Shown: piece by piece, positions 5,411 to 24,571 of the stretch | Position numbering within the stretch: the stretch's first letter is position 1 | Layout: the number at the start of each line of letters is the position of its first letter | Source: Rhodanobacter denitrificans | GTDB lineage: Bacteria > Pseudomonadota > Gammaproteobacteria > Xanthomonadales > Rhodanobacteraceae | Reading direction: 5' to 3' | Length of the DNA: 48,237 nt | NCBI GenBank assembly: GCA_017848855.1 | Contig: JAFIHF010000007.1 | Location: forward strand, 1-48,237 | The notes under the pieces: generated by a model | The model's database searches: none | Told to the model about the DNA's origin: nothing | What the model saw: only the letters and a program-made list of their open reading frames with translations | Program-made: the position numbers and the translations under genes

Positions 5411-6673
5411 CTACGGTTCGCCGGCCGCCTCCGGCGCGCTCGCCGCGTCGCGCCGCGACTGCCGCGCCACCACGCTGGCCACGGTGAGGTCGGCGGTGAC
5501 GTTGCCCAGCGTGGCGAACACGTCGGGCAGGGTGTCCACCGCGAGCATCAGGCCCAGCGGCGCCACCGGCACGCCCATCGCCTGCGCCACCGGCAGGTTC
5601 GTCGCCATGAAGGTGACCTGGCCGGGCAGGCCCACCGAGCCGAGGCTGATCACCACCGCCAGCGCCGCGCCGGCGGCGAGCGGCGCCGGCCCCAGCGGGA
5701 TGCCGCTGGCCCAGGCGATGAAGCAGGCGGAGGCGATGTACTGCACCGGGCTGGTGAGCCGGCACAGCGACACCGCCATCGGCAGTACCAGCGCGTTGAC
5801 CTGCGGCGGATAGCCCAGCCGCCGCTCCGCGCTTTCCAGCATCGCCGGCAGCGAGGCCAACGAGGACTGCGTGCTGGCCGCCACCGCCTGCGCCGGCGCC
5901 AGTGCGGCCACGAAGCGGCGCAGCCGCTCGCCGCCCCACAGCACCGCCACCGGCAGCATCAGCGCGGTGACCGCGAGGTACAGCAGGATCTCGGTCAGCA
6001 CGTACACGCCCAGCGCGCGCACCATGCCCAGGCCGGCGCGCGCGCAGACGGCGAGGATCAGCGCGAACACGCCCAGCGGTGCCAGCCACAGCACCCAGCG
6101 CACGATCGCGATCATCGCGTCGGCGATCGCCTGGAAGAACTCCACCAGCAGCGCGCGCCGCGACGGCTGCAGCCGGGTCAGCGCGAAGCCGAGGCACAGC
6201 GCGAACACCACCAGCGGCAGCATCGCGCTCTGCGCCGCCGCCATCAGCGCGTTGCTGGGCACGATGCCGGCGAACCAGTCGGCCCAGCCCGGCGCGGCGG
6301 TGGCCGGCACCTGCGCGCCCGGCCCGTTCAGCGCCGCGCCCAGCGCGGGATCGTGCGGGAACAGCGCCAGCAGCGGCGGCGCCAGCAGCGCGGCGACGGC
6401 CGCGCCGAGCATGAGCAGCACGATGATGACGACCAGCGTGCGCCGCGCGATGCGCCCGGAAGCCGCCGCGTCGCTGGCGCTGTTCACGCCCACTACCACC
6501 AGCGCCAGCACCAGCGGCACCACGGTCATCTGCAGTGCGTTGAGCCAGAGGCGGCCGATCGGCTGGGCCACGTCCGCCGCATGCGCGGCCCAGTCAGGTG
6601 CCCAGGCGGCCAGCGCCAGCCCCGCCAGCGCGCCGGCGGCCAGGCCCAGCAGCACGCGGCTGGTGGCGCTCAT
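5411..6673 (-). CDS. Dicarboxylate/amino acid:cation symporter (DAACS family)
   Basis: 420 residues with about eight hydrophobic helices and two re-entrant regions typical of the GltP/DctA family. Segments that place it there are [11 protein letters not shown] (the serine-rich hairpin 1), [17 protein letters not shown] and [27 protein letters not shown] (the substrate/Na site with the TLPDVF and NVTAD residues). The canonical NMDGT motif of glutamate carriers is not present; the equivalent stretch reads [13 protein letters not shown], so the ion coupling or substrate may differ. The start ATG 6673 overlaps the stop of the L,D-transpeptidase-like gene (ATGA), so it is the last gene of a minus-strand unit. 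Import of glutamate or a related product of murein peptide breakdown would fit, but is inference. Confidence 0.88.
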
Positions 6674-7440
6674 CGGCCGCCCTGCACGGCCGGCAAGTGC
6701 CAGGTGTTGTGCAGGCGCGCGTACTCGTCCTGCGGCAGCAGCACGAACACCGGGTGCGCCTGCGGCTTCAGCCAGGCCAGCAGGCGCTGCATGACGGCAG
6801 GCGTCATCGCGGTGCAGCCGGTGGTGCCGGTGGTCGGCGACGCCCACAGGTGGGCGAAGATGCAGCTGCCGCCGTGCGCCACGCCGTCCGGGTTGTGCTC
6901 GATCACGAAGCCGAGCCGGTAGGCCTGGTCGCCATGCACGTGCAGGTCGCGCCGCATCGGCTCGCTGGAACCCGCGAGCGCCGCCGCGCCGACCTTGGCC
7001 GTATCGGCGATGCGGTTGTACAGCGGCGTACCGCTGACATCCATGCACCAGTCGGTGGCGGTGAGCGCACGGTAGGGCATCGCCGTGTCCGCATGCGCGG
7101 CGTAGCCGAACGCTTCGCCGATGCGGAACACGCCGGCCGGGCTGCGGCCGTCGCCTTCGCGCTTCTGCGGGCCGTCGTGCTGCGGCGGACTGAGGCCGAT
7201 GCCCCAAGCCGCGCCGCCGTGGCCGATCACCACCGGCTGCGCCGTGCCCACTTCGTGCCACGCGTCGCCGTGCTCGCGTTGGTAAGTGCGCAGCGTGCCT
7301 TCGATCGTGTTCCAGTCGGGCACGGTGACCAGCACCATCTGGTTGGCATTGGACCAGGCGGCGGAGGGGTCGTTGGCGGCGATGGCGCTGCCTGCGAGGG
7401 CCAGGCCGGCGGTCAACAGGATCGTGAGGCGGTTACGCAT
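6670..7440 (-). CDS. L,D-transpeptidase-fold (YkuD-like) exported protein
   Basis: 256 residues from ATG 7440 (an in-frame ATG at 7458 is possible). The N-terminus MRNRLTILLTAGLALAGSA is a signal peptide, so it acts outside the cytoplasm. The catalytic region is CIFAHLWASPTTGTTGCTAM with Cys209 as the expected nucleophile in a TTGCTAM version of the usual SHGC motif, and an upstream GIGLSPP / GDGRSPAGVFRIGEAFG stretch is typical of COG3786 proteins. Such proteins form or cleave bonds at the meso-DAP of peptidoglycan stem peptides; whether this one is a transpeptidase or a carboxypeptidase cannot be seen. It is coupled to the symporter downstream and separated from rpiR by a repeat-filled 326-bp gap. 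Confidence 0.87.
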   Translation of the reverse strand: MRNRLTILLTAGLALAGSAIAANDPSAAWSNANQMVLVTVPDWNTIEGTLRTYQREHGDAWHEVGTAQPVVIGHGGAAWGIGLSPPQHDGPQKREGDGRSPAGVFRIGEAFGYAAHADTAMPYRALTATDWCMDVSGTPLYNRIADTAKVGAAALAGSSEPMRRDLHVHGDQAYRLGFVIEHNPDGVAHGGSCIFAHLWASPTTGTTGCTAMTPAVMQRLLAWLKPQAHPVFVLLPQDEYARLHNTWHLPAVQGGR

Positions 7441-7766
7441 GGCGATGGAAACCTCCAACGAAGGAATCCCTCTCCCTTCGGACGCGGGGAAGGGCCATGG
7501 ATGGCCCTGCTTTGAGGAGCGAGGAAGAGGGTGCCGACCTGCAGGTGCGGATGCGCCTGCGGAACAGCGAAGCTAGCCCCGGCTGGGGTGAGCGCCATGG
7601 AAGGCGCGAATCCAGGCGGGTGAGGGTTCGGGCGAAGATGAGCGCCGAGGCAAATCCGAACCCTCACCCCAACCCCTCTCCCGGAGGGAGAGGGGCTCAA
7701 GGGCGCCGCCAGCCCGGAGGGAGAGGGGCCAAGTGGCGCGGCGCGGATGGACGTCCGGACGGCCAT
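7441..7766. other. Gap of 326 bp filled with palindromic repeats
   Basis: No coding sequence is supported here. The gap lies between the RpiR regulator and the L,D-transpeptidase-like gene. It contains small palindromes such as GGGCCATGGATGGCCC near 7492, GGACGTCC near 7750 and the larger element at 7618-7701. Any promoter for the downstream pair would have to lie close to 7441-7500, but none is convincing. Confidence 0.6.
7618..7701. repeat. Dispersed double-hairpin repeat, copy A
   Basis: GGGTGAGGGTTCGG is followed after a spacer by CCGAACCCTCACCC, and then CCCCTCTCCC pairs with GGGAGAGGGG, ending GCTCAAG. The same order and spacing recur at 22484-22567, and a shortened relative is at 19940-19976. 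A further GGAGGGAGAGGGGCC follows directly at about 7715. Confidence 0.8.
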
Positions 7767-8624
7767 TCACGGCTCCAGCATCTGCTGGATGCGGTCCAGG
7801 TTGGCGACCAGCTGCGCGTGGCGCGCGTCGTCGCCTTCGCACAGGCGCACGAAGATCACGTCCAGCAGGTGCTGCAACGCGGACTGGTAGAGCAGCGACT
7901 GGATGTACGGGCGTTCGTCGTGCGCCGACACCAGCAGCGCCACGTCCGCCAGCGTGCGCAGCGGGTTGGCGGTGTGCCGGGTCACGCTGATCACCTGCCC
8001 GCGCCGCTCGCGGAAGTAGCGGCTGATCTTGCACAGCGCCGGATGGTTGCCGTGCTCGGAGAACACCACCAGCACGTCGCCGGGGCCGGCGGCGGAAACG
8101 TTCGCGGTCATCCGTGCGGTGTCGAAGTTGTGCACGGTGAGGATGCCCAGCAGCGACAGCTTCAGCGCGAGGCCGCGCGCGTGGATGTCGTCCTCGCCGA
8201 GGCCGATGATGAACACCTTGCCGCTGCGCCCGGCGGTGCCAATCGCCGCGGCCACCGCGGCCAGCGTCTGCGGCGGGTTGATCAGCCGGGTCGCCTCCTC
8301 CGCCTCGGACTTGCGCCGCCACAGGCTGCCGGCCAGTGCGTCGTCGGTCTCGCCGCCGACCTGCGCGGCGGCGGCCTCGTCGTCGCCGTTGTCGGCGCGG
8401 GCGATCGCCTCGCCCACCGAGTACTTGAGGTCGGGGTAGCCCTTGAAACCGAGCTTCTGGGTGAACTTGACCACGCTGGACTGGCTGATGCCCAGCGCGT
8501 TGGCGAGCTGCTGCGAGGAGTAGTCGCGCAGCAGCTGCGCGTTGTCCAGGATGAAGTCGGCGATGCGGCGCTCCACTGCCGACATCTGGTCGCGCTCGGA
8601 GCGGATTTTCACCAGGGGCGACAT
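7767..8624 (-). CDS. MurR/RpiR-family transcriptional regulator
   Basis: 285 residues. The N-terminal ~77 residues form an HTH_6 domain (MSAVERRIADFILDN ... ANALGISQSSVVKFTQKLGFKGYPDLK), and the middle to C-terminal part is a SIS sugar-phosphate-binding domain (GRSGKVFIIGLGEDD, DVLVVFSEHGNHPAL). Members sense phosphosugars; MurR of E. coli responds to MurNAc-6-phosphate. The ligand here is unknown, but its place among murein-processing genes makes a peptidoglycan-derived signal plausible. A 262-bp element with terminal inverted repeats lies directly upstream, and its end supplies the AACAGG ribosome-site-like sequence 7 nt before the ATG. It may be co-transcribed with the epimerase. Confidence 0.93.
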   Translation of the reverse strand: MSPLVKIRSERDQMSAVERRIADFILDNAQLLRDYSSQQLANALGISQSSVVKFTQKLGFKGYPDLKYSVGEAIARADNGDDEAAAAQVGGETDDALAGSLWRRKSEAEEATRLINPPQTLAAVAAAIGTAGRSGKVFIIGLGEDDIHARGLALKLSLLGILTVHNFDTARMTANVSAAGPGDVLVVFSEHGNHPALCKISRYFRERRGQVISVTRHTANPLRTLADVALLVSAHDERPYIQSLLYQSALQHLLDVIFVRLCEGDDARHAQLVANLDRIQQMLEP

Positions 8625-8630
8625 GGCAGA

Positions 8631-8892
8631 GCCTGTTTATGATCTCCGCATGGCCCGCGCCGGGAGCTGTTTGCGCGCAGACCAAGGAAGAAGGAGGGAG
8701 TGGACGTCCGTCCACGACCGAGTGATGACGCAGGGATGTGGGCAAACAGCCCCGGCCCTGCGGGTTGTCTTGCCGTGGCCGCCATGCGGCAGCGCGCGGC
8801 TTGACCTGCCAGCCAGGCAGGCGCTGCGCCACGCGCCACCACCTGACGACCACGGCAAGGCAACGCGGGCCATGTGGGGATCATAAACAGGC
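8631..8892. repeat. 262-bp element with ~29-bp terminal inverted repeats (MITE-like)
   Basis: The left end reads GCCTGTTTATGATCTCCGCA and then TGGCCCGCG. The right end is its inverted copy with two differences (GATCCCC and ACATGG). Inside are further nested palindromes: CTGTTTGCGCGCAG with GCAAACAGCCCC, GTGGACGTCCGTCCAC, and TGTCTTGCCGTGGCC with CCACGGCAAGGCAACG. It exactly fills the gap between the epimerase stop (8895) and the regulator start (8624). No transposase gene and no clear target duplication are seen, so it is either a non-autonomous element or a compound REP structure. Confidence 0.7.
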
Positions 8893-8894
8893 CC

Positions 8895-9992
8895 TCAGCT
8901 TTCCAACGGTTCCAGCCCGTGGATCGCGCGGATGCCCAAGCCGGGCGCATCCGTCACCGAGATCTCGGACTCGTTGAAGATCACGCCGCCGTCCACCGGG
9001 TTGAACGCGCACAGCGAGGGGCCGTCCAGGTCGACCTTGGTGATCGCGTCGGCCTTGGCCACCGCCACGTGCACCGCGGCCGCCACGCTGATCGAGGTTT
9101 CCAGCATGCAGCCGATCATGCAGTCCACGCCGTGCAGCGCGGCGATGTCGGCGATCTTGATCGCGTTGGAGATGCCGCCGGTCTTCATCAGCTTGATGTT
9201 GATGATGTCGGCGGCGCGCAGGCGGATCAGCTCGATCACCTCCATCGGCCCGAACACGCTCTCGTCGGCCATGATCGGCGTGTGCACGCGTTCGGTGACG
9301 TAGCGCATGCCGTCGAGGTCGCGCGCCTTCACCGGCTGCTCGACCAGCTCCAGCTTGATGCCGGCGTCCTCCAGCGTCTGCAGCGCGTACACCGCCTGCT
9401 TCGCGGTCCAGCCCTGGTTCGCGTCCAGGCGCAGCAGCGCGCGGCCCTCGACCGCGGCGTAGATCGCCTTGACCCGCTCGATGTCCACGCCGATGTCCTT
9501 GCCCACCTTGATCTTCAGCGATTCGAAGCCGCGCTCCACCGCGGCGACGGAGTCGGCCACCATCTTGTCGATGTAGTCCACGCTGATCGTGATGTCGGTG
9601 GTGATGACGGGGTCGCCGCCGCCCAGGAGCTTGTACAGCGGCGCGCCGTAGAGCTGGCCCCACAGGTCGTACAGCGCGATCTCCACCGCCGCCTTGGCGC
9701 TGGTGTTCTTCTCCACCGAGCCCTGGATCGCGCGGGTCAGCCGGTTGAGCTCGGCCACGTCCTGCCCGATCAGCCGCGGCGCGATGTAGTGGCGGATCGC
9801 GTCGACGATGGAGCCGTGCGTGTCGCCGGTGATCACCGCGGTGGCCGGCGCCTCGCCGTAGCCCACGTGGCCGCTGTCGGTGTGCACCATCACCACGATG
9901 TCCTCGACCTGGTTGACGGTGCGCAGCGCGGTCTTGAACGGGGTCTTCAGCGGCACCTTGAGCATGCCGAAGCGGATGTCCGTGATCTTCAT
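8895..9992 (-). CDS. Dipeptide epimerase (L-Ala-D/L-Glu epimerase type, enolase superfamily)
   Basis: 365 residues. The N-terminal capping domain (residues ~1-125) is followed by the barrel with the acid-base lysines K160/K162 in LKIKVG and K267/K270 in INIKLMKTGG. The metal ligands lie in LLRLDANQGW, ELVEQPV and IMADESVFG, and a C-terminal DLDGPS (the DxD-type motif of dipeptide epimerases that binds the substrate amino group) is present. The catalytic numbering is very close to the known L-Ala-D/L-Glu epimerase of Bacillus. There is no signal peptide, so it is cytoplasmic. The known family reaction converts L-Ala-D-Glu from murein into L-Ala-L-Glu. It follows the NlpC/P60 gene by 27 bp, the same pairing as ykfB-ykfC. 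Confidence 0.92.
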   Translation of the reverse strand: MKITDIRFGMLKVPLKTPFKTALRTVNQVEDIVVMVHTDSGHVGYGEAPATAVITGDTHGSIVDAIRHYIAPRLIGQDVAELNRLTRAIQGSVEKNTSAKAAVEIALYDLWGQLYGAPLYKLLGGGDPVITTDITISVDYIDKMVADSVAAVERGFESLKIKVGKDIGVDIERVKAIYAAVEGRALLRLDANQGWTAKQAVYALQTLEDAGIKLELVEQPVKARDLDGMRYVTERVHTPIMADESVFGPMEVIELIRLRAADIINIKLMKTGGISNAIKIADIAALHGVDCMIGCMLETSISVAAAVHVAVAKADAITKVDLDGPSLCAFNPVDGGVIFNESEISVTDAPGLGIRAIHGLEPLES

Positions 9993-10019: not shown

Positions 10020-11417
10020 TCAGCGGCGGATGCGCACGATGCTGGTCATGCGCTCCACGTAGCTTTCGCGGTCGTTGAACATCAGCGGCAGCAGCGGCGT
10101 GACCGATACCGCGTTGAGCTTGACCCGGCGCATCGCGCCGTCCGGGCCGCGGTAGCTGATGCCGGTGGTGTCGTGGATCACCCACGGCTGGCCGTCGATG
10201 CGGCCGATCACCATCATCACGTGGCCGGGAATGTAGACGAGGTCGCCCACCTCCAGCGCGGCGACCGCGCGCAGGCGCGCCGCGCGGTCGTCGGCGGCGC
10301 CGAACGCGGTGTGCGACAGCGCCGGGCTCACCGCCTGCGCGCTGGTGTCGCGCGGCATCAGCACGCCCATCGAGCGGTAGACGTCGGAGACGAAGCCCGA
10401 GCAGTCGCGTGCGTCGTAGGCGTGGCCCCAGCCGTAGCGTTCGCCGAGCAGCTTGAACGCCTGGCGCAGCAGGTTGGCGCGGGTCAGCGGCAGGTAGTCG
10501 GCGGCGCTGTCGGCGGTCTTCGGCAGCAGCGCGGGGCCGAACGACAGCGCGCCATCCGCGCCGCGCAGCGGCAGCTCCAGCGTCCACGAGCTGTACGGGC
10601 CTTCGCCGTTCACCGGCTCGCCGGGCGGCAGCTTGGCCAGCGGCAGGCGCGTGCCCATGTCCAGCTGCAGCTGCGACAGCGCCGGGTTTTCCGGCGTGTA
10701 CACCGTGCGCACCACGCCGCCGGTGACGACGCGGTACGGCGCCTGGTCCGCGTAGCCGAACACCTGCGCCGCGCTGCCGATGGCGATGGCCTGCTTGCGC
10801 ACCCAGGCGCCGTAGCGCGGGCTCAGCACGAACAGCCATTCGCCGTCGCGGCTGGCGTGCAGCACCGCCACCGGCGTGCCGGGAAACTCCGCGGTTTCCT
10901 GGAAGCGGTCGATGTCGGTGTCGCCCTTGCTGCTGAACACACGCAGCTCGGTGGGGAAGGCGCGCAGGGCGGCGCGCGCGACCACCAGGCCGTAGCGCGG
11001 CGCGACGTGGGCCGGAATGGCGTCCAGCGCGAGGTTCGCCACCAGCGCATCCAGCGTGGCGGCGGGCACCGCCGCGCCGTGCACGTCGTACAGCGTGTGC
11101 GCGGGGCGCTGCGAAACCGCCTCGATCCGGCCCGCCACCGCGGCGCGGTCCAGCTCGGCCGGCAACTGGCGCAGGTCGTGCATGCTGGGATCGAGTTGCA
11201 GCACACGGGCGTTCAGCGCGGCGATCGCGCTGCGGTCGAGGATCACCTGGTCCGGCTGCGCGAGCCGATCGATCCAGAACTGCGGACTGAGTTGCGCGTC
11301 GGTCACCCCGATCACGCCCGAGGGCGGGATCGGCAAACTCGCCTCGCGCGCATGCAGTGGCGCGCAGCACAAACCCAGCGCCAGGGCGGTTGCGAGCAGC
11401 AGGGGATGTTGTCGCAT
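10020..11417 (-). CDS. SH3 + NlpC/P60 murein endopeptidase (YkfC-like), exported
   Basis: 465 residues with a signal peptide (MRQHPLLLATALALGLCCAPLHA). Two SH3-like segments cover roughly residues 130-300, with the wording FPGTPVAVLHASRDGEWLFV and SPRYGAWVRKQAIA. The C-terminal NlpC/P60 domain has Cys339 in RDCSGF, His399 in PGHVMMVIG and His415 in VIHDTTG, forming the Cys-His-His set of the family. YkfC-type enzymes cut the gamma-D-glutamyl-diaminopimelate bond, releasing L-Ala-D-Glu, which is the substrate of the adjacent epimerase. It lies 15 bp after the DUF819 gene in one operon. The signal peptide implies a periplasmic site, so its product would need import before epimerisation. Confidence 0.92.
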   Translation of the reverse strand: MRQHPLLLATALALGLCCAPLHAREASLPIPPSGVIGVTDAQLSPQFWIDRLAQPDQVILDRSAIAALNARVLQLDPSMHDLRQLPAELDRAAVAGRIEAVSQRPAHTLYDVHGAAVPAATLDALVANLALDAIPAHVAPRYGLVVARAALRAFPTELRVFSSKGDTDIDRFQETAEFPGTPVAVLHASRDGEWLFVLSPRYGAWVRKQAIAIGSAAQVFGYADQAPYRVVTGGVVRTVYTPENPALSQLQLDMGTRLPLAKLPPGEPVNGEGPYSSWTLELPLRGADGALSFGPALLPKTADSAADYLPLTRANLLRQAFKLLGERYGWGHAYDARDCSGFVSDVYRSMGVLMPRDTSAQAVSPALSHTAFGAADDRAARLRAVAALEVGDLVYIPGHVMMVIGRIDGQPWVIHDTTGISYRGPDGAMRRVKLNAVSVTPLLPLMFNDRESYVERMTSIVRIRR

Positions 11418-11432: not shown

Positions 11433-12584
11433 TCAGGGCGACGCCAGCGTCGCCAGCACGGAGGACACCAGCAGGCCGAAGCCGGTGCCGAGGATATAGC
11501 CCAGCAGCGCCAGCAGGATGCCCACCGGCACCAGCGAGCGCGCGTAGGTGGCGGCCAGCACCGGCGTGGCGGCCACGCCGCCGATGTGCGCCAGCGAGGA
11601 GATGCCGCACAGGTACAGGTCGAAGTGGAACAGCCGTGCGAAGCCCACCAGCAGCACGGCGTGGATCGCGATGATGGTGACGCCGCACAACAGGTACAGC
11701 GGTGCCGCGCCGATGTTCTCGAAGTTGCTCTGCGAGGCCAGCACCGCCACCACCGCGATCAGCAGCGCGCCGGAGATACGCGCGGCGCCCGGAAAGCGCG
11801 CCAGCGGCGTATGCGCCGCCACCAGGCCGGCGAGCGTGGCGAGCAGAATCGTCCAGGTGGTGGCGCTGACCATGCCCGAGCGCGGCAGGTGCTGCGCCAG
11901 CACGGCCGAACCTGCGGCCGCCATCAGCGCCAGGCCCAGCCACAGCAGCACGCTGTCGGTGGTGGGCGCGCCGCTGTCGCGCGCCTCGGCGGTGGCGATC
12001 TCCGCGCTGGAGCGCGCCCGCGTCCAGCGGTTGAACGCCGGCGCCAGCCGCGCCACCGAGAACAGCACCACCACCCACATCGAGTAGCACAGCGCATCGG
12101 TGAGCAGCGACATCGCCAGGTGCGCGTCGGACATGCCGATCGCCTGCTTCACCGCGATCATGTTCGCGGTGCCGCCCACCCAGCTGCCCGACAGCGCGCC
12201 CAGCGGATGCCAGGCGTCGCCCGGCAGCCAGCTGCGGTAGATCAGGAAGGTGGCGACGAAGGCCACGAACAGACTCGCCGAGGTGCAGGCAAACACCGCC
12301 AGCACGCGCGGCCCCAGCGCGAGGATCGCGCGCAGGTCGCAGTTGATCATCAGCAGGAACAGCAGCGCCGGCACCAGCTGCGTCACCAGGGTGGACTGCG
12401 CGGCGCGGATCGGCTCGTTGTTCTGCCACAGCCCCGCCACCGCCATCGCGGTGACCAGCAGGTAGGTGAGCACGATCGGCGGCAGCACGTTGAAGATGCG
12501 CCAGCCGTAGTAGCGCTCCAGCGCGGGAAACAGCCCGGCCGCCAGCAGCATCAAGGCCAGGTATGGCCAGACCGTGTGGATCAT
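11433..12584 (-). CDS. DUF819-family integral membrane protein
   Basis: 383 residues with roughly ten to twelve hydrophobic segments. Two internal repeats each carry a glycine-rich re-entrant-like motif: GSWVGGTANMIAVKQAIG (residues ~134-151) and SLAHIGGVAATPVLAA (residues ~330-345). This pairing is typical of DUF819 (YjcL-like) proteins and resembles two-fold symmetric carriers. The family has no firm biochemical role that I know. It is the first gene of the minus-strand unit with an AT-rich promoter region upstream, and it precedes the NlpC/P60 and epimerase genes. Import of murein-derived peptides such as L-Ala-D-Glu is a reasonable guess from context only. Confidence 0.88.
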   Translation of the reverse strand: MIHTVWPYLALMLLAAGLFPALERYYGWRIFNVLPPIVLTYLLVTAMAVAGLWQNNEPIRAAQSTLVTQLVPALLFLLMINCDLRAILALGPRVLAVFACTSASLFVAFVATFLIYRSWLPGDAWHPLGALSGSWVGGTANMIAVKQAIGMSDAHLAMSLLTDALCYSMWVVVLFSVARLAPAFNRWTRARSSAEIATAEARDSGAPTTDSVLLWLGLALMAAAGSAVLAQHLPRSGMVSATTWTILLATLAGLVAAHTPLARFPGAARISGALLIAVVAVLASQSNFENIGAAPLYLLCGVTIIAIHAVLLVGFARLFHFDLYLCGISSLAHIGGVAATPVLAATYARSLVPVGILLALLGYILGTGFGLLVSSVLATLASP

Positions 12585-12649
12585 CGCCCCGTTGCCTCCC
12601 CGGCGGACCAGCGTGGCCGGCGGGGCCGGTCGGCTGGTTTGGAATAGTT

Positions 12650-12672
12650 AATTTCAAAAAATTCGATTCGAA
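12650..12672. promoter_or_regulatory. AT-rich palindromes in the divergent control region
   Basis: AATTTCAAAAAATT (12650-12663, arms AATTT/AAATT) is directly followed by TTCGATTCGAA (12662-12672). They lie just downstream of the minus-strand -10 and upstream of the plus-strand -35, a good place for an operator. They are the most AT-rich bases in the first 27 kb. The nearby RpiR-type regulator is the obvious candidate to bind here, but this is inference. Confidence 0.4.
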
Positions 12673-12699
12673 GCATAAATTATTGACCGTCGATTGCAA
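12672..12699 (-). promoter_or_regulatory. Candidate sigma-70 promoter for the DUF819-NlpC-epimerase operon
   Basis: On the minus strand, TTGCAA (12699-12694), a 16-bp spacer and TATGCT (12677-12672) form a reasonable -35/-10 pair about 90 nt upstream of the DUF819 start. The -35 is within the spacer of the opposing promoter, so the two directions would compete. Confidence 0.5.
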
Positions 12700-12711: not shown

Positions 12712-12746
12712 GCGAACACGGCAAAAACTTGCGGTGAGTTTTCGCG

Positions 12747-17300: not shown

Positions 17301-17324
17301 TTGGTCGTGACCTACACCTACTGA
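14313..17324 (+). CDS. TonB-dependent receptor, Oar-like with carboxypeptidase-regulatory-like domain
   Basis: 1003 residues from ATG 14313, which has a GGGGA ribosome site; an in-frame GTG/ATG region from 14295 is less likely. A signal peptide (LRRTVLCMALGLGLASVAG) precedes a beta-sandwich domain (AVTGAVAGHADAGTQIVV ... GNYSLQVLRDG, residues ~30-100). The plug domain follows (LARLPVDQNLASVALLAPG, VVYINGLDVTDPY, GYSAEFGRSTGGVINAVTRSG), then a long beta-barrel with paired cysteines in extracellular-type loops (for example CPWY ... LWCP). It ends in alternating aromatic residues (QLVVTYTY). Such receptors import large or peptide-like ligands across the outer membrane. Being second in a murein-enzyme operon, it is a candidate muropeptide importer. 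Confidence 0.93.
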   Translation: MSNARILRRTVLCMALGLGLASVAGDPALAQAVTGAVAGHADAGTQIVVTQTATGQTRSVTVGADGSYRVAQLPVGNYSLQVLRDGQQVGAPIAVAVSLGGTTTVNLGSRGNVVNLEAIQVVGSRVVNRVDVFSTESATNITREELARLPVDQNLASVALLAPGVIASGATFGGLTFGGSSVAENVVYINGLDVTDPYRRQGYSTVPFAFFQEFQVKTGGYSAEFGRSTGGVINAVTRSGGNEFHAGAELTMEPAAWASAKKDHFHTDGTIDERDRTSRDEDPFYKANVWASGPLIKDKLFFFAMYERRDSRPLDIDTTQAWKTRDANDFWGLKLDWHISDRHLLELLAFSDKADATTRNYDYTWNSASFGRKRGESSAGSGGDNGALTYTGHFGDSFVAKAMYGVNKRSATGSSPWDAGCSKVYRDSSYTALFGPRTVQEGCHPTNNSISSRHDKRIETRLDFEWTLGDHLLRFGADQEVMDSRSSTVYPGDGVSYTVLGMPASRVDRVLPGGGVVPPGDTAYVDARRYITGAPVSTTAQALYVEDNWNVTPTLLLNLGVRGDKFENKLASGATFAKAAFSDMISPRVGFSWDVKGDGTTKVFGNAGRYYIPLTNKITDYFGGGTTDEHTYYVLDGWLQKTDPVTGGTYLFPKVGAQLGPVNTEGNAAAPDDVRTAVDRKLKQVFQDEYILGFQQAIDQTWSYGANLTYRKMTRSVEDVRINHVAGCPWYSGDWPILNPGDQATLWCPDTNSWVTFDSSKDGYQALGSNIVMGYKKPRRTYKAVELQLDRAWDGKWAFNASYIWSKSEGNIEGPVNSDTGYNDTNLVQYYDHPAVNERYGVLFNDHRHQIKLRGSYKFNDMWSMGATFSAYSGGPITAFGVRWPNDNRSAGGPGEFSGGGSGWLCVANCSDWKTRQLVYTGRGAFGRMPWVKDLGVNVTWTLPVKDIDLKARFSIYNLLNSQTVVNVHSRYESTPGNKMPYFGQGTVWQAPRYMQLVVTYTY

Positions 17325-17374: not shown

Positions 17375-17386
17375 CAGGGAAGCGAC

Positions 17387-18652
17387 ATGCAGGAACATCA
17401 GGCCGCCACCGTTGGCGGAAGGTTCGAGGGCGTCGATCTGGCGGCCCTCGCGCAACGCGAAGGCACGCCCCTGCACGCTTATTCCGCCAACGCGATCCGC
17501 GGGCGGATCGGCGAACTCGAGGCCGCGCTGGCCGGGCTCGACGCCACGATCTGCTACGCGGTGAAGGCCAACCCCAACCACGCCATCCTGCAGCTGATGG
17601 CCGCGGCCGGGCTCGGCGCCGACGTGGTTTCCGCCGGCGAGATGTGGCGCAGCCTGCGCGCCGGCATCCCCGCCGCGCGCATCGTGTTCTCCGGCGTGGG
17701 CAAGAGCGCGCACGAGATCGCCGAGGCGCTCGCCGCCGGCATCGCCCGCTTCAACGTGGAATCGGCCGACGAGCTGCAGCTGCTGCAGCTGCTGGCCGCC
17801 GAGCTGGACGTGGTGGCGCATGCCGCGGTGCGCATCAACCCCGACGTGGACGCGCCTACCCACGCGAAGATCGCCACCGGCAAGTCGGAGAACAAGTTCG
17901 GCGTGGACATCGACGAAGCGCGCCGCTGGTTCGCCGCGCGCGAGCAGCTGACCCACGTGCGGCTCGACGGCCTGCACGTGCACATCGGTTCGCAGATCCT
18001 CGCGCTGGAACCGTTCCGCCTCGCGCTGCAGCGCGTCGCCGCGTTCTGGCGCGAGCTGCGCGACGCCGGCCACGCGATCGCCAGCATCGACGTGGGCGGC
18101 GGCCTCGGCGTGCGCTACCGCGAAGGCGAACGGGCGGTCGCCGCCGCCGACTACGCGGCCGTGGTCCGCGCGGCGCTGGCCGGCTTCGACGGCCGCCTGC
18201 TGCTGGAGCCGGGCCGCTGGCTGGTGGCCGAGGCCGGCGTGCTGCTGACCCGCGTGCTGCGCGTCAAGGAGGGCGCCGGGCGCCGCTTCCTGGTGCTGGA
18301 CGCGGCGATGAACGACCTGCTGCGCCCCAGCCTGTACGATGCCTGGCACGAGATCGTGCCGCTGGTGGAGGGTGGGCGCCGCATGACACGCTACGACATC
18401 GTGGGCCCGGTCTGCGAAACCGGCGACACCTTCGCCCGCGACCGCCCGCTGCCCGAGTGCGAAGCCGGCGACCTGGTGCTGATCCGCACCACCGGCGCCT
18501 ACGGCGCCTCGATGGCCTCCACCTACAACTCGCGGCCGCTGGCCGCCGAAGTGCTGCTCGACCGCGGCCGTTACGCCGTGGTGCGCCGCCGGCAGACGCT
18601 GGAGGAGATGATCGCCGGCGAGCAACCGGCCAGCCACTGGGAAACGCCATGA
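17387..18652 (+). CDS. lysA: Diaminopimelate decarboxylase (stand-alone LysA)
   Basis: 421 residues, a fold-type III PLP enzyme. Lys60 in CYAVKANPN binds PLP, HVHIGSQI lies near residue 200, DVGGGLGV and LEPGR give the phosphate-binding segments, and Cys343 in GPVCETGD is the catalytic Cys from the partner subunit. The GTPLHAYS start and the CETGD motif favour meso-DAP as substrate over ornithine or arginine. It converts meso-DAP to L-lysine in the cytoplasm. It overlaps the following dipeptidase (ATGA at 18649). In a murein-degrading operon it could turn salvaged DAP into lysine rather than serve only biosynthesis; that is inference. Confidence 0.9.
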   Translation: MQEHQAATVGGRFEGVDLAALAQREGTPLHAYSANAIRGRIGELEAALAGLDATICYAVKANPNHAILQLMAAAGLGADVVSAGEMWRSLRAGIPAARIVFSGVGKSAHEIAEALAAGIARFNVESADELQLLQLLAAELDVVAHAAVRINPDVDAPTHAKIATGKSENKFGVDIDEARRWFAAREQLTHVRLDGLHVHIGSQILALEPFRLALQRVAAFWRELRDAGHAIASIDVGGGLGVRYREGERAVAAADYAAVVRAALAGFDGRLLLEPGRWLVAEAGVLLTRVLRVKEGAGRRFLVLDAAMNDLLRPSLYDAWHEIVPLVEGGRRMTRYDIVGPVCETGDTFARDRPLPECEAGDLVLIRTTGAYGASMASTYNSRPLAAEVLLDRGRYAVVRRRQTLEEMIAGEQPASHWETP

Positions 18653-19887
18653 ACCGCACCGCGCCCCGCCCGCCCGCCCTCGTCCGCCTCGCGCTCGGCC
18701 TGACCACGCTCGCCGCCATCCCCGCCGCCGCAATGCAGGCGGCGCCGCACGACCCGCCGCTCACCATCGACACCCACGTCGACATCCCGTTCGCCTACAT
18801 GCGCGAGCCGCGCTTCGACGTGGGCAGGGACACGCCGCTCAAGGTCGATCTGGGCAAGATGGAACGCGGCGGCCTCGATGCGGCGTTCTTCGTGATCTGG
18901 GTGCCGCAGGGGCCGCTCACGCCCGCCGGCTACGCCAGGGCCGTCGAGCAGGCCGGGCAGAAGTACGACGGCATCGGCCGCATGCTGATGCAGTACCCCG
19001 ACCGCATCCGCCTCGCCGCCACGCCCGAGCAACTCGTCGCCAACCGCCAGGCCGGCCTGCTCTCGGCCACGATCGAGATCGAGAACGCCTACTCGCTCGG
19101 CCACGACCTCCGCCGCCTCGACGCCGCGTTCGACCGCGGCGCCCGCTCGGTCGGCTTGGTCCACGTCGGCAACAACGACCTGTGCAGCAGCTCGCTGCCC
19201 GACACCGAACACGGCGAACCGGCGATGAACAGCCAGGGCGACGCCGGCATGAGCGCGTTCGGCCGCGCGGTGGTGCAGCGCGCGAACCGGCTCGGCATGC
19301 TGGTCGACATCTCGCACGCCTCCGACCGCTGCGTGCGCGACGCGCTCGCGGTGTCCGCCGCGCCGATCATCGCCTCGCACTCCGGCGCGCGCGCCGTGCT
19401 CGACCATCCGCGCAACCTGCCCGACGAGCTGCTGCGCGCGATCGCCACCAAGGGCGGCGTGGTGCAGGCGGTGGCGTTCAAGGAATTCCTGAAACGCGAC
19501 CCCGGCCGCGAAGCCGCCGAGAAGAAGCTGCAGGACGCCGTGGCCAAGGCCAACGGCGACGCGAAGTACGACAGCGACCGCGACGACTACCTGCCCGCGA
19601 TGGCGCAGGGCATGGCCGCGATCCAGCAGCAGTACCCGCTGCCCACGCTGGACGACTACGTCAAGCAGATCCGGCACATGGTGCAGGTGGCCGGCATCGA
19701 CCACGTGGGCATCGCCTCCGACTTCGACGGCGGCGGCGGCATTACCGGCTGGAACGACGCCGGCGAAACCCGCAACCTCACCGCCGCGCTGCGCCATGCC
19801 GGCTTCAGCGACGCCGACATCGCCAAGCTGTGGGGCGGCAACCTGCTGCGCGTGTGGCGCGAGGTGGAGCGTCATGCGCAGCCGTGA
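18649..19887 (+). CDS. Membrane (renal-type) dipeptidase, peptidase family M19, exported
   Basis: 412 residues with a signal peptide (LVRLALGLTTLAAIPAAAM). The zinc site residues are visible: His43 and Asp45 in DTHVDIP, a bridging Glu in ATIEIENAYSLG (residue 143), His in VDISHASD and His in IIASHSGARAV, with the later IASDFDGGGG segment. M19 enzymes are metal-dependent dipeptidases that often accept a D-amino acid in the second position, so L-Ala-D-Glu or related murein dipeptides are possible substrates. Its start overlaps the lysA stop. The catalytic residues seem complete and the length is normal. Confidence 0.93.
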   Translation: MNRTAPRPPALVRLALGLTTLAAIPAAAMQAAPHDPPLTIDTHVDIPFAYMREPRFDVGRDTPLKVDLGKMERGGLDAAFFVIWVPQGPLTPAGYARAVEQAGQKYDGIGRMLMQYPDRIRLAATPEQLVANRQAGLLSATIEIENAYSLGHDLRRLDAAFDRGARSVGLVHVGNNDLCSSSLPDTEHGEPAMNSQGDAGMSAFGRAVVQRANRLGMLVDISHASDRCVRDALAVSAAPIIASHSGARAVLDHPRNLPDELLRAIATKGGVVQAVAFKEFLKRDPGREAAEKKLQDAVAKANGDAKYDSDRDDYLPAMAQGMAAIQQQYPLPTLDDYVKQIRHMVQVAGIDHVGIASDFDGGGGITGWNDAGETRNLTAALRHAGFSDADIAKLWGGNLLRVWREVERHAQP

Positions 19888-19939: not shown

Positions 19940-19976
19940 CCCTCTCCCCCAGCGGCGGTGCCGCCGGGGGAGAGGG
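19940..19976. repeat. Palindromic repeat at the dipeptidase/serine-hydrolase junction
   Basis: CCCTCTCCCCC and GGGGGAGAGGG enclose an inner GCGGC-GGT-GCCGC hairpin, followed by TCGGGGTGAGGG. It is a relative of the 7618-7701 and 22450-22567 repeats. Its purine-rich right half would act as the ribosome site of the GTG start at 19982. Confidence 0.75.
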
Positions 19977-19981
19977 TCGGG

Positions 19982-21544
19982 GTGAGGGGACGCCTTGGCC
20001 TCGCCCTGTTCGCCGTCCTCGCCTTCGCCGGCTCCGCGCACGCCGCCACGCCCGCGACGCAGGACTACGACCGCATCCTCGACGCCGTAGTCGCCCGCTA
20101 CCGCCTGCCCGGCATCGCGCTCGGCGTGATCGAGCACGGCCAGGTGGTCTACGTCGCCACGCGCGGCGAGACCGTCGCCGGTTCGGGCCAACCGATCACG
20201 CCGCACACGCTGTTCAAGATCGCCTCCAACAGCAAGGCGATGACCACCGCCCTGCTCGGCCGATTGGTCGACCAAGGCAGGCTGCGCTGGGACGACCCGG
20301 TGACGAAGTACCTGCCGGACTTCCAGATGCACGACTCGTGGGTCACGCGGAACATGCGCGTGGCCGACCTGCTCACCCACTCCAGCGGTCTGCCCGAGGG
20401 CGGCGGCGACCTGATGCTGTGGCCGGAGCCGAACGCGTTCACCCGCGCCGACATCGTCCACGGCCTGCGCTACATCCAGCCCGGCTACAGCTTCCGCGCG
20501 AAGTACCAGTACGACAACCTGCTCTACGTGGTGGCCGGTGAAGTCGCCGCCGCCGCGGGCGGCGCGCCGTACGAGACGCTGATGCATCGCGAGCTGTTCC
20601 AGCCGCTCGGTCTTTCGCGCTGCCAGGTCGGCGCATGGAACCGCGACGCGGTGGGCGACGTGGCCGAACCGCACTCGCGCGAGGGCGGGCGCAACGTGCC
20701 GATGCGCGAGGACGGCCCGGCGATCCCCGCGATCGCCTCCGCCCCGGCCGGCGGCATCCGCTGCGATCTCGACGACATGCTCGCCTGGGCGCGCAACTGG
20801 CTGGCGCCCACGCCGGCGCAGCTCGAGTGGCTGTCGGCCGAGCAGCGCCGCGTGCTGCAGTCGCCGCACATGCTGATCCCGGTCTCCGCGCAGCGCCGCG
20901 AGTGGGACCGCAGCCACGTCATGGCCTACGGCTACGGCTGGCGCATGGCCGATGCGGACGGCCACTGGACGGTGTGGCACACCGGCACGCTGGGCGGCAT
21001 GTATTCCGAGCTGATGCTGCTGCCCGACATGCAGAGCGGCTTCGTGTTCATGATCAACGGCGAGGCCGAGGATGCGCGCAGCGTGCTCGGCGAAGTGCTG
21101 CTCAAGCACTTCACCGCGCCGGACGACACGCGCGGCGTCGCGTGGTATGCCGATGCGCTGGAGCGCGCGCACAGGCAAGCGACGGCCCGCGCCGCCGCGC
21201 CCGACATCTCTGCCGCCACGCCGGTCGCACCCGCCGCATTGGCCGCATGGACGGGACGCTACCGCGATCCGTGGCTGGGCGAACTCGCGCTGTGCCCGCG
21301 AGGCGGCCGCGTGCATTTCGCCGTCGCCAAGTCGCCCAAACTCAGCGGCGAGGTGCTGCGCCTGGGCCGACGCGAGCTGGTGCGCTGGAGCGACCGCAGC
21401 GTGGCGCCCGATGCCTGGCTGGATTTCCATCCCGCGCAAGCCGGCCAAGCCGCCACGCTGACCATGGCCAAGCTCGATCCGCTCGGCGACTTCAGCTCCG
21501 ACTACGAAGACCTGCACTTCGTGCGCACCGGGGACTGCCCATGA
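19982..21544 (+). CDS. Exported serine hydrolase (beta-lactamase class C / DD-peptidase fold), 1
   Basis: 520 residues from GTG 19982. An ATG at 19874 is in frame, overlaps the dipeptidase end and has a GGAG ribosome site, but it would add 36 Pro/Arg-rich residues translated from a dispersed repeat, so the GTG directly before the signal peptide (LGLALFAVLAFAGSAHA) is preferred. Catalytic motifs are Ser82-x-x-Lys85 in IASNSKAM, YDN in KYQYDNLLYV, and HTGTLGG near the C-terminal side. A C-terminal ~100-residue beta domain follows (LAAWTGRYRDPWLGELAL). Such proteins may be DD-carboxypeptidases, D-amino-acid amidases or esterases. Its context suggests peptidoglycan peptides. Confidence 0.9.
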   Translation: MRGRLGLALFAVLAFAGSAHAATPATQDYDRILDAVVARYRLPGIALGVIEHGQVVYVATRGETVAGSGQPITPHTLFKIASNSKAMTTALLGRLVDQGRLRWDDPVTKYLPDFQMHDSWVTRNMRVADLLTHSSGLPEGGGDLMLWPEPNAFTRADIVHGLRYIQPGYSFRAKYQYDNLLYVVAGEVAAAAGGAPYETLMHRELFQPLGLSRCQVGAWNRDAVGDVAEPHSREGGRNVPMREDGPAIPAIASAPAGGIRCDLDDMLAWARNWLAPTPAQLEWLSAEQRRVLQSPHMLIPVSAQRREWDRSHVMAYGYGWRMADADGHWTVWHTGTLGGMYSELMLLPDMQSGFVFMINGEAEDARSVLGEVLLKHFTAPDDTRGVAWYADALERAHRQATARAAAPDISAATPVAPAALAAWTGRYRDPWLGELALCPRGGRVHFAVAKSPKLSGEVLRLGRRELVRWSDRSVAPDAWLDFHPAQAGQAATLTMAKLDPLGDFSSDYEDLHFVRTGDCP

Positions 21545-22416
21545 AGCATCATCTCTCCATAGGAGCGCACCCTGTGCGCGAATGGAGCAGGAGTGAGTGC
21601 AGAGGAGTGAGAAGTGAGAGGGGAACTGCACACCGCCGCTCATGCTTTCTCTATCTCCTCACTCCTCTGCACTCACTTCTCGCTTTCGCGCACAGGGTGC
21701 GCTCCTACGGCATCGCGGCCATCATGGCGTTGGCGGCATGCATGCAAACCGCACAAGCCGACGAACCGTCGCCGCAACTCTCGCCCGCGAAAACCGCGGC
21801 GCAGGCGGGCCTGGTCGACATCCGCAGCCTGGTGCCCGACATCGCCGAGGACATCAAGTACGCCGGCAGCGACAACTTCGTCGGCCGACCGGTGCACGGC
21901 TACCTCGCGCCCAAGTGCCTGCTGCTGCGCCCCGCCGCCGAGGCGCTGGCGCGGGTCGAACATGAGCTGCACGCCGAGCACTACCGGCTGAAGCTGTGGG
22001 ACTGCTACCGTCCCGCCCGCGCGGTGGCGGATTTCGTGCGCTGGGCGCACGACCTTTCCGACCAGCGCACCAAGCCGCAGCACTACCCGGACCTCGACAA
22101 GTCGCAACTGCTGGGCGACTACATCGCCCCCGTCTCCGGCCACAGCCGCGGCGCCACCGTGGACCTCACCCTGGAGCGCTGCGCCGCCGACGGCACGCAT
22201 TGCGCGCCGCTGGACATGGGTACCGGCTTCGACTGGTTCGGCGTGCGCGCCCACACCGACGCGCCCGATATTGGCGCCGCGCAACTCGCCAACCGCCATC
22301 GCCTGCGCGCGGCGATGGAACGCGAGGGTTTCCGGAACTACCCGCTGGAGTGGTGGCACTACACCCTCACGCCCGAACCCGCGCCGCACATGATTTATGA
22401 CGTGCCGGTGCAATGA
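21541..22416 (+). CDS. D-Ala-D-Ala dipeptidase, VanX/DdpX type
   Basis: 291 residues if it starts at ATG 21541, which overlaps the previous stop (ATGA). Residues ~7-56 are then translated from a REP pair lying in frame. A GTG at 21697 would give 239 residues beginning just before GIAAIMALAACM, a lipoprotein-like signal with an LAAC box. The catalytic domain has zinc ligands His201 and Asp208 in SGHSRGATVDL and His273 in EWWHY with catalytic Glu270 (numbering from 21541), plus the conserved Arg of DCYRPARA. VanX enzymes hydrolyse D-Ala-D-Ala; in a bacterium without a van cluster this is usually a salvage enzyme. No other vancomycin-resistance genes are near. Confidence 0.9.
   Translation: MKHHLSIGAHPVREWSRSECRGVRSERGTAHRRSCFLYLLTPLHSLLAFAHRVRSYGIAAIMALAACMQTAQADEPSPQLSPAKTAAQAGLVDIRSLVPDIAEDIKYAGSDNFVGRPVHGYLAPKCLLLRPAAEALARVEHELHAEHYRLKLWDCYRPARAVADFVRWAHDLSDQRTKPQHYPDLDKSQLLGDYIAPVSGHSRGATVDLTLERCAADGTHCAPLDMGTGFDWFGVRAHTDAPDIGAAQLANRHRLRAAMEREGFRNYPLEWWHYTLTPEPAPHMIYDVPVQ
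21560..21708. repeat. REP pair, copy B, inside the 5' end of the VanX-like gene
   Basis: The left arm TAGGAGCGCACCCTGTGCGC starts at 21560 and its reverse complement ends at 21708. The inner GAGTGAGTGCAGAGGAGTGA block is inverted as ACTCCTCTGCACTCAC. It is the same structure and nearly the same length as copy A (1941-2088). It contains no stop codon in the VanX frame. Confidence 0.9.
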
Positions 22417-22449
22417 GCGCCTCATCACTGCCGGACTCTGCACGCCCGA

Positions 22450-22567: not shown

Positions 22568-22589
22568 CTCACGCGCACGGAGAACGCCC

Positions 22590-23645
22590 ATGCGTCTTGC
22601 CACCACCTTGGCCTTGCTGCTTATCGCCAGCGCCGCAAACGCAGCCTCCACCGCCGACGCCATCCAGAACGCCAACCGCCTGATGCAGCCCTACACCGGC
22701 AACGTTCCCGGCGCCGCGCTGCTGGTGATCAAAGACGGCAAGCCGCTGCTTGATCGCGGCTATGGCATGGCCGACCTGGAGCACCACGTCGCCGCGACTT
22801 CCGCCACCGACTACCGCCTCGCCTCGGTCACCAAGCAGTTCACCGCCGCGGCAATCCTGCTGCTGGCGCAGGACGGCAAGCTCAGGCTCGACGATTCGAT
22901 CCGCCACTGGCTGCCCTCGCTGCCCGCGTTCACCGACGAGGTGACGCTGCGCGAACTGCTCTGCCACACCGGCGGCCTGCTCGACTACGAGGACCTGATT
23001 CCGCCCGGCGCCACGAAGCAGCTTGACGACGGCGACGTGCTGCACATGATCGCCGCCACCACGCACGGCTACTTCCCGTCCGGCAGCGCCTACCGCTACA
23101 GCAACACCGGCTACGTGCTGCTCGGCCTGGTGGTGGAGAAGGCTTCCGGCATGCCGCTGCAGGACTTCCTCGCGCGGCGCATCTTCCAGCCGCTGCACAT
23201 GGACCACACCCTGCTCTACGTGCACGACGACAAGACGGTGCCCAACCGCGCCTACGGTTACAGCGAAACGAACGGCCGCTGGCAGCGCACCGACCAGGAC
23301 CTCACCAGCGCCACCCGCGGCGACGGCGGCATCTATTCGAACCTCGACGATCTCGCGAAATGGGACGCCGCGCTCTACGACGACCGCCTGCTCAGCGACG
23401 CCTCGCGCAAGCTCGCCTTCAGCCCCCACGCGAAGGTCGTGGGCGAGCCCTACCAGGCCGACTACGGCTACGGCTGGCGCATCACCGGCGACACGCTGTG
23501 GCATTCGGGCGAGAGCATCGGCTTCCGCAACGTGATCGTGCGCTGGCCGAAGCAGCATCTCACGGTGATCCTGCTCAGCAACCGCAACGATCCGGAGCCC
23601 TATCGCACTGTGCTGGCGATTGCCGAGCCGTTCCTGCATCCATGA
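22590..23645 (+). CDS. Exported serine hydrolase (beta-lactamase class C / DD-peptidase fold), 2
   Basis: 351 residues from ATG 22590 with a GGAGA ribosome site. The frame is open further upstream only through the repeat. A signal peptide (LATTLALLLIASAANA) precedes the catalytic domain with Ser79-x-x-Lys82 in LASVTKQF, Tyr170-Ser-Asn172 in YRYSNTGY, and His305-Ser-Gly in LWHSGES. It lacks the extra C-terminal domain of the first serine hydrolase. The substrate is uncertain within this large family; D-amino-acid peptide hydrolysis would fit its neighbours. Its stop overlaps an in-frame upstream ATG of the amidase gene. Confidence 0.92.
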   Translation: MRLATTLALLLIASAANAASTADAIQNANRLMQPYTGNVPGAALLVIKDGKPLLDRGYGMADLEHHVAATSATDYRLASVTKQFTAAAILLLAQDGKLRLDDSIRHWLPSLPAFTDEVTLRELLCHTGGLLDYEDLIPPGATKQLDDGDVLHMIAATTHGYFPSGSAYRYSNTGYVLLGLVVEKASGMPLQDFLARRIFQPLHMDHTLLYVHDDKTVPNRAYGYSETNGRWQRTDQDLTSATRGDGGIYSNLDDLAKWDAALYDDRLLSDASRKLAFSPHAKVVGEPYQADYGYGWRITGDTLWHSGESIGFRNVIVRWPKQHLTVILLSNRNDPEPYRTVLAIAEPFLHP

Positions 23646-23674: not shown

Positions 23675-23702
23675 CGTCATTCCAGCGAAAGCTGGAATGA
23701 CG
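23675..23702. repeat. Perfect 12-bp palindrome with GAAA loop
   Basis: CGTCATTCCAGC-GAAA-GCTGGAATGACG: two perfect 12-bp arms around a four-base loop that would form a GNRA tetraloop in RNA. It is of the CGTCATTCC intergenic repeat type seen in many proteobacteria. It lies between the second serine hydrolase and the amidase, just ahead of the chosen amidase start. Confidence 0.85.
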
Positions 23703-23719
23703 AGCAAGAAGCAAAAGCC

Positions 23720-24571
23720 ATGAAGCCCACCGCCATGCGCCAGACATTCCCGAACACCCACCGCCTGCGCACCGCCGTCCTGCTGCTCCCACTTGTGCTG
23801 CTCGCCGCCTGCGCGCCGCTGCCGCCACGCAATCCGCTGGCCACCTGGGTGCCGTCGCCGAACCACGACGTGCGCCGGCCGGTGCTGATCGTGCTGCACT
23901 TCACCGAGCAGCAGTCCGTCGCACAGAGCCTGGACACCTTGCGCACGAGGAACAGCGGCGGCCCGGTGAGCGCGCATTACCTGATCGGCAGCGACGGCCG
24001 CATCTACCAGCTGGTGCCGGACCAGTGGCGCGCGTGGCAGGCGGGGCCGGGGCGCTGGGGCACCATCACCGACCTCAATTCCGCCTCGATCGGCATCGAG
24101 CTGGACAACGACGGCCGCTCGCCGTTCGCCCAGCCGCAGATCGACAGCCTGCTGCGCCTGCTCGCGGACCTGACCACGCGCCTGCACATCCCGCCCACCC
24201 AGGTCATCGGCCACGAGGATCTCGCGCCCGGCCGCAAGAACGACCCCGGCCCGCTGTTCCCGTGGCAGCAACTCGCCGAGGCCGGCTACGGCCGCTGGCC
24301 GCGCGGCCCGCTGTGCGATCCGCCGCCCGGCTTCGATCCATGGATGGCGCTGGCCGTGGTCGGCTACGCGCTGGACGACCGCACCGCCGCGGTGCGCTCG
24401 TTCCACCACCACTTCCGCGGCATGCAGGGCGACACGCTGGACGCCGAGGACCTGCGTATCCTCTACAACCTCGCGCAGCAGATCGAGCCGGCGACCAACA
24501 CCTGCATCGCGCCCGCGCCAGGCTCCCTCGACGGCCCGGTTGCCCAGTCGCCGCGTCAGGGCCGTCAGTAG
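23720..24571 (+). CDS. N-acetylmuramoyl-L-alanine amidase, AmiD-like lipoprotein
   Basis: 283 residues from ATG 23720; an in-frame ATG at 23642 would read through the palindrome. The signal LRTAVLLLPLVLLAAC is a lipobox, so the protein is probably an outer-membrane lipoprotein as AmiD is. The amidase_2 zinc site is His60 (IVLHFTEQ), His165 (VIGHEDLAPG) and Asp175 (RKNDPGPLFPW). The last ~90 residues (WMALAVVGYALDD ... FHHHFRGMQGDTLDAEDL) look like the peptidoglycan-binding domain found in AmiD. The enzyme cleaves between MurNAc and L-Ala, freeing the stem peptide, the first step expected of a murein-peptide utilisation route. It ends the operon and overlaps the globin gene tail to tail by 7 bp. 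Confidence 0.93.
   Translation: MKPTAMRQTFPNTHRLRTAVLLLPLVLLAACAPLPPRNPLATWVPSPNHDVRRPVLIVLHFTEQQSVAQSLDTLRTRNSGGPVSAHYLIGSDGRIYQLVPDQWRAWQAGPGRWGTITDLNSASIGIELDNDGRSPFAQPQIDSLLRLLADLTTRLHIPPTQVIGHEDLAPGRKNDPGPLFPWQQLAEAGYGRWPRGPLCDPPPGFDPWMALAVVGYALDDRTAAVRSFHHHFRGMQGDTLDAEDLRILYNLAQQIEPATNTCIAPAPGSLDGPVAQSPRQGRQ

Follow-up and report, generated by a model that had tools for sequence, protein, structure and literature searches.

Polysaccharide utilisation loci bring together a regulator, a TonB-dependent receptor, exported hydrolases, a carrier in the inner membrane and catabolism in the cytosol. Large amounts of D-amino acids and nitrogen are stored in bacterial walls, and few described loci for consuming them were found in our literature search. 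The ykfABCD/ykfBC genes of Bacillus place a YkfB-type epimerase next to an SH3b-NlpC/P60 gamma-D-Glu-diaminopimelate (DAP) peptidase and, in B. cereus, the ykf peptidase carries a signal peptide, the epimerase does not, and import of L-Ala-gamma-D-Glu was proposed (PMC2954226). Here, we describe fourteen genes at positions 5411-24571 of a 48,237-nt sequence of Rhodanobacter denitrificans (contig JAFIHF010000007.1 of GCA_017848855.1, an assembly of 73 contigs and 3.49 Mb), the whole of which is referred to as the window. The same adjoining pair occurs in this locus, with a predicted signal peptide on the peptidase and none on the epimerase, and import of L-Ala-gamma-D-Glu would likewise be expected. 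We lean towards the view that these genes form a locus for the regulated catabolism of murein (peptidoglycan) stem peptides in Xanthomonadales, a variant of ykf-type systems, because they include such specific enzymes as a YkfB-like epimerase, a gamma-D-Glu-DAP-type peptidase, an extra DAP decarboxylase and a VanX-like dipeptidase. No description of this locus was found in the literature search.

The fourteen genes were delimited by open reading frame listing, a composition model, whose preferred starts are used here, and translation. Family assignment by Pfam and NCBIfam matches upheld the fourteen genes and two divergent units given in the initial annotation: F-E-D-C-B-A on the minus strand and G-H-I-J-K-L-M-N on the plus strand, with a divergence region at 12585-12746. 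Judging signal sequences from hydropathy alone plus a lipobox check, we expect B, E, G, J, K, L, M and N to be exported and C, D and I to stay in the cytosol. The features are the following.

A: 5411..6673, minus strand, DAACS/SDF symporter (254.8 bits to Pfam SDF) that may import amino acids or an acidic dipeptide
B: 6670..7440, minus strand, YkuD (L,D-transpeptidase-fold) protein, probably exported (marginal: YkuD 23.2 bits, cut-off 23.4)
C: 7767..8624, minus strand, RpiR-family regulator with HTH_6 and SIS (family scan)
Element resembling a miniature inverted-repeat transposable element (MITE): 8628..8895, no strand assigned, 32-nt terminal inverted repeats (91%), in the C-D gap
D: 8895..9992, minus strand, L-Ala-D/L-Glu-type dipeptide epimerase, YkfB-like, no signal sequence
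E: 10020..11417, minus strand, SH3b1 and NlpC/P60 protein, probably exported (family scan; C339, H399, H415)
F: 11433..12584, minus strand, DUF819 (PF05684) membrane protein, predicted elevator-type transporter of CitS/AspT fold
Conserved F|G intergenic block: 12641..12688, plus strand, GGAATAGTTAATTTC (12641-12655) and GCATAAATTATTGACC (12673-12688), candidate operator of C
G: 12747..14279, plus strand, transglutaminase-like cysteine peptidase (Transglut_core), probably exported; nearest fold 3ISR
H: 14313..17324, plus strand, Oar-like TonB-dependent outer-membrane receptor (family scan)
I: 17387..18652, plus strand, diaminopimelate decarboxylase LysA, extra copy (467.9 bits)
J: 18649..19887, plus strand, M19 dipeptidase, probably exported (family scan, hydropathy)
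K: 19958..21544, plus strand, beta-lactamase-fold serine hydrolase, probably exported, start uncertain (AmpH-like, 93.8 bits, cut-off 266; motifs SxxK/YxN/HTG)
L: 21697..22416, plus strand, M15 peptidase (VanX-like), probably exported (SGHxRGxxVD, EWWH)
M: 22587..23645, plus strand, beta-lactamase-fold serine hydrolase, probably exported (best NCBIfam match D-aminopeptidase, 107.3 bits, cut-off 443)
N: 23720..24571, plus strand, Amidase_2 N-acetylmuramoyl-L-alanine amidase (lipobox LAAC; AmpD model 95.7 bits, cut-off 143)

Conservation of the locus was followed in 80 named loci, the best 80 of 582 confirmed stretches, 14 of them shorter than 21 kb; because their flanks are limited, the numbers given for L, M, N and trp genes in these loci are lower bounds. 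To these were added 48 regions (L042-L089) drawn from 44 of the 94 E-containing genomes, partly the same genomes as those of the named loci, and 14 further regions picked out of 121 genomes of the order with the epimerase. E is present in 94 of 197 sampled family genomes and F in 77. The 73 F orthologs all have E at a distance of 9-170 bp; the other four F matches come from genomes that lack E and are only distantly similar (29-32% identity). When the fourteen proteins were mapped on the 48 regions and the 80 named loci, a common gene order emerged in Rhodanobacter, Dyella, Luteibacter, Frateuria, Fulvimonas, Dokdonella, Lysobacter, Luteimonas, Pseudoxanthomonas and others. Of the 76 named loci that have five or more of the fourteen genes, 71 are collinear and strand-consistent, the exceptions being L113, L132, L156, L169 and L171. 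At the level of the order, the epimerase was found in 121 of 299 genomes and 35 of 85 genera (E-value 1e-100 or better); D adjoins an E homolog (38-62% identity) in 14 of the 14 further regions while the other genes vary, and D-E-B is retained even in a region from another order (L189). Since this arrangement is shared by 71 of the 76 loci and the flanking genes vary, the fourteen genes are, by this comparison, one conserved unit and not a chance assembly, co-conserved in Rhodanobacteraceae and Lysobacteraceae. Overlaps are fewer than had been described: junctions with overlapping codons are 2 of 12 (B/A, 6670-6673; I/J, 18649-18652) rather than the majority, and the remaining ten are gaps of 15-326 bp, several with repeats inside.

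The nearest solved structure to D is B. subtilis YkfB (1JPM, 344 bits). D keeps the enolase-superfamily domains, KxK and the second catalytic lysine, D-x-D and Arg24, and residues R24, K162, K267, D321 and D323 are invariant in 10 of 10 sequences; the roles of R24, K162, the second lysine and D-x-D are our assumption. In E, the catalytic and gamma-D-Glu-site residues Y328, W330, D338, C339, S340 and H399 are invariant in 16 of 16 sequences. E thereby has the Cys/His catalytic residues and the Tyr/Trp/Asp/Ser of the gamma-D-Glu site that define the YkfC subfamily in PMC2954226. Its match to 3H41 spans the catalytic domain only, with Y328, W330, D338, C339 and S340 inside the aligned stretch and H399 outside; the SH3b domain, where the subfamily's conserved Tyr (Tyr118) would lie, is beyond the match. 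The nearest solved relatives of E are DvLysin (3M1U, 100.6 bits) and PnpA (6SQX, 39.2 bits), which also combine SH3b with NlpC/P60, and E is predicted to be a DvLysin/PnpA-like gamma-D-Glu-diamino-acid endopeptidase. PnpA is reported to have gamma-D-Glu-DAP specificity and to degrade the peptidoglycan of other species (PMC7860986). A locus for wall attack or antibiotic response, whose exported lysins and serine hydrolases would target competitors or alter the own wall under antibiotics, would fit this likeness, the class C beta-lactamase fold of K and M, and the VanX-like L. We nevertheless judge it very improbable: it leaves D, F and I unexplained, and K, M and L fall far under the beta-lactamase and VanX cut-offs. 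E is distant from DvLysin and PnpA; PnpA is a secreted lysin, and E lies within a catabolic-looking locus.

I and L also point to the wall peptide. I passes the LysA equivalog TIGR01048 (467.9 bits vs 297.9) and, as the genome holds a separate aspartokinase-LysA fusion, is by its matches an extra LysA copy. L carries SGHxRGxxVD and EWWH, which we take to be VanX zinc-site motifs, and scores under the VanX equivalog cut-off (186.5 vs 320 bits); the earlier label of VanX dipeptidase is thus loosened to a VanX-like M15 relative. C362, H399 and D415 of G are invariant in 20 of 20 sequences, as is Cys209 of B in 13 of 13, and B would be an LD-carboxypeptidase or LD-endopeptidase. The fourteen genes include no glycan (sugar) enzymes, no cytosolic L-Ala-L-Glu dipeptidase and, unless B is one, no known LD-carboxypeptidase, so that the system cannot be called complete, as had been proposed. 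Mpl and AmpG are encoded elsewhere in the genome, which makes the locus a likely addition to ordinary recycling.

We propose the following sequence of events. Wall fragments with peptides attached would cross the outer membrane through H. Once they are in the periplasm, the amidase N would release stem peptides from N-acetylmuramic acid (MurNAc), K and M (serine hydrolases), G and B (peptidases) and the VanX-like L would take off cross-links and D-Ala, E would cleave gamma-D-Glu|DAP to yield L-Ala-D-Glu and DAP(-D-Ala), and J would split L,D-dipeptides such as DAP-D-Ala. F (DUF819), A (DAACS) or both would carry L-Ala-D-Glu, DAP or amino acids inward. In the cytosol, D would turn L-Ala-D-Glu into L-Ala-L-Glu for a general dipeptidase, and I would convert DAP to lysine. 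Finally, C would sense an amine-bearing product (DAP or L-Ala-D-Glu) and act at the divergent intergenic site.

That site is GCATAAATTATTGACC, preceded in the F|G region by GGAATA..T.ATTC at a mostly fixed spacing. Allowing two mismatches, it occurs in one copy each in 99 of 128 loci. Site and RpiR gene C are both present in 98 of these loci and both missing in 26, with C alone in 3 and the site alone in 1 (L139 and L141, among these mixed cases, are truncated contigs); in the 80 named loci taken separately, the corresponding numbers are 65, 11, 3 and 1. Six further regions that have C plus G or a kept receptor slot also have the site (L209, L215, L218-L221). C is likewise present in L214, where both a G match and the site are missing. 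In its own genome, GCATAAATTATTGACC is unique at up to three mismatches, and the reversed control gave 0 matches. C and the intergenic site probably constitute a local switch. The initial annotation had called C an RpiR/MurR regulator. The HTH and SIS matches bear out RpiR; a MurNAc-6P sensor does not agree with C scoring below the curated MurR cut-off (93.4 vs 408) or with its binding motifs, GLGEDD and FSEHGNH in place of the GxG[AS]S- and SxSG-like motifs of the solved RpiR proteins 4IVN, 8TX9 and 8JU9, which served for the comparison rather than MurR itself. We take the replaced SIS Ser/Thr motifs to be phosphosugar-binding. Since they are replaced and D145 and E190 are invariant in 68 of 68 rows, the ligand of C is probably not a sugar phosphate and would be amine-bearing.

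A locus-type receptor (>=40% identity) is found in 59 of the 80 named loci. In a tree of 53 of 95 rows, part of them chosen by random hash and built by a quick method that gave long-branch warnings, the receptors fall into two clades occupying one slot. H of the window (14313-17324; L094) clusters with receptors of R. lindaniclasticus and Lysobacteraceae, most sampled Rhodanobacteraceae having the other type (44-49% identity to H), and its neighbours are not foreign-looking. Two clades in one slot among such neighbours suggest that the receptor alone was exchanged between lineages. With co-conservation, the shared site, the probably murein-directed enzymes and this receptor, the core of the initial claim, a murein-peptide utilisation locus with its own receptor, is retained as the more likely reading. 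As to the carriers, F reaches the Pfam gathering score for DUF819 (PF05684) with a CPA/AT-type transporter fold, and A is present in 62 of the 80 named loci. A more specific picture for Xanthomonadales combines a TonB receptor for murein peptides, a DUF819 elevator carrier of L-Ala-D-Glu and an RpiR regulator reading the amine of DAP or a muropeptide through an acidic pocket, with the receptor slot exchanged and the rest constant; we regard it as possible but somewhat doubtful. No TonB-dependent receptor for murein peptides was found in the literature search.

Another arrangement of these genes occurs on a single contig (L054 and L113; cluster at L054:516-10285). Homologs of E and G stand there beside an Oar-like receptor (~29% identity), an M61 peptidase, an amino-acid (APC) permease and, by eye, a LysR-like gene. 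The contig also carries DgcN, over its cut-off of 480 with 505.6 bits, a DgcA-like racemase that stays under its own (371.2 against 400), and homologs of I, K and L (74%, 57% and 65%). The cluster would combine a wall-peptide front end with a different D-glutamate route, an independent re-use.

A number of observations weigh against a murein-peptide locus as we read it. First, D falls under the curated epimerase cut-offs (NF041118, 254.9 vs 500; NF011708, 116.4 vs 343), for which reason we describe it only as YkfB-like, even though the earlier assignment to L-Ala-D/L-Glu epimerases agrees with its nearest structure and kept residues. Dipeptide epimerases differ in specificity, and the M19 and DAACS families include generalists. 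General scavenging of D-amino acids and peptides, with the epimerase and peptidases acting on other dipeptides and H importing protein peptides, would accommodate these scores. It seems quite improbable given that YkfB is the closest relative of D, with R24 and D-x-D kept, that the families of E, L, N and I are linked to the wall or to DAP, and that a DgcN-DgcA version of the cluster exists. Second, in YkfC an Asp binds the free amine and makes the enzyme specific for free L-Ala, according to PMC2954226. This position is Asp357 in the E of the window; among 128 relatives it is Asn in 117 and Asp in 9, with no match in 2, hence Asn in 117 of the 126 matched. E may, on this account, also be active on larger fragments, as reported for PnpA, and the initial assignment holds for NlpC/P60 and not for the YkfC type, the nearer relatives being 3M1U and 6SQX. 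Third, two true exceptions (L116, L165) have C and no site, the promoter scan of the divergent region returned nothing, and no inverted repeat in that region reaches 10 nt. Fourth, D is present in 74 named loci, of which 16 lack F, 12 lack A and 5 lack both, some contigs being short, so that neither can be taken as a proven carrier. Across the phylum sample of 299 genomes, 21 have DUF819 and 32 the epimerase; the two occur together in 7 genomes, and at one locus only in the 2 genomes of this family.

Finally, H, F and J are absent from four same-genus genomes (L053, L082, L084, L085), whose locus has A-E, G, I and K-N. Together with small loci lacking H, namely L056 (B, E, L) and L142, L147 and L161 (B, D, E, J, L), this speaks for periplasmic scavenging or recycling of the cell's own murein turnover peptides, the receptor then serving something else or recapturing lost fragments. 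We hold that explanation to be unlikely: Mpl and AmpG are already present, most named loci keep a locus-type receptor, LysA is in extra copy and the amidase has a lipobox. Own turnover products may still be a substrate of the murein-peptide locus that we prefer, with external wall debris favoured because of the receptor, the amidase and the separate AmpG/Mpl route.

The block sits between trpGDC (2807-5316) and trpE (25879-27354), the latter assigned by translation and by matches beside the locus in relatives rather than by a family-library scan. At least 24 of the 80 named loci have trpG and at least 11 have trpE, which often lies beyond the covered stretch. The locus splits trpE from trpGDC in several relatives too; in others, no trp gene was seen alongside. 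Beyond trpE, 27716-32941 holds, by eye, an S9-peptidase-like and a TonB-receptor-like gene, and in L172, L173, L198 and L200, homologs of that S9-like peptidase have DUF819 genes of a different subfamily nearby. NlpC/P60 homologs without the remaining locus occur in L048, L065, L072-L074, L078, L079, L081 and L087. The right arm of the MITE-like element of this strain ends at 8895, the last base of the stop codon of D; its end has 20 matches in the genome at up to two mismatches, both copies here counted, several in pairs ~250 bp apart. Strong inverted repeats lie in repeat-like sequence at 21557-21710 and 22443-22563 (K-L and L-M gaps), and the J-K gap contains CCCTCTCCC (19940-19975), similar in look. 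A tRNA-Glu called by ARAGORN inside the F gene (12016-12092, minus strand) had no Rfam call and is probably false.

If the proposed function is true, the locus would provide genetic handles on a wall-fragment receptor, on a carrier function for the uncharacterised DUF819 and on a new RpiR ligand class, as well as a marker for the use of bacterial remains in Rhodanobacter, Dyella, Lysobacter and relatives.

Compared with Bacillus ykf, the locus is Gram-negative and adds a TonB receptor, seven further exported hydrolases, its own RpiR regulator and LysA; DUF819/DAACS carriers stand in place of dipeptide ABC components, and its peptidase is nearer to DvLysin and PnpA. The DgcN-DgcA pathway likewise treats D-glutamate as a resource and is joined with E, G, I, K and L homologs in the L054/L113 cluster; by its NCBIfam names, it would proceed by N-acetylation and racemisation of D-Glu, whereas the window has a dipeptide epimerase instead. 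Family scans gave no glycan-enzyme or SusD-type match among the fourteen genes. As in polysaccharide utilisation loci, a regulator, a TonB receptor, exported hydrolases, a carrier and cytosolic catabolism are co-conserved, with the difference that the substrate would be a peptide and that the receptor is of the Oar type.

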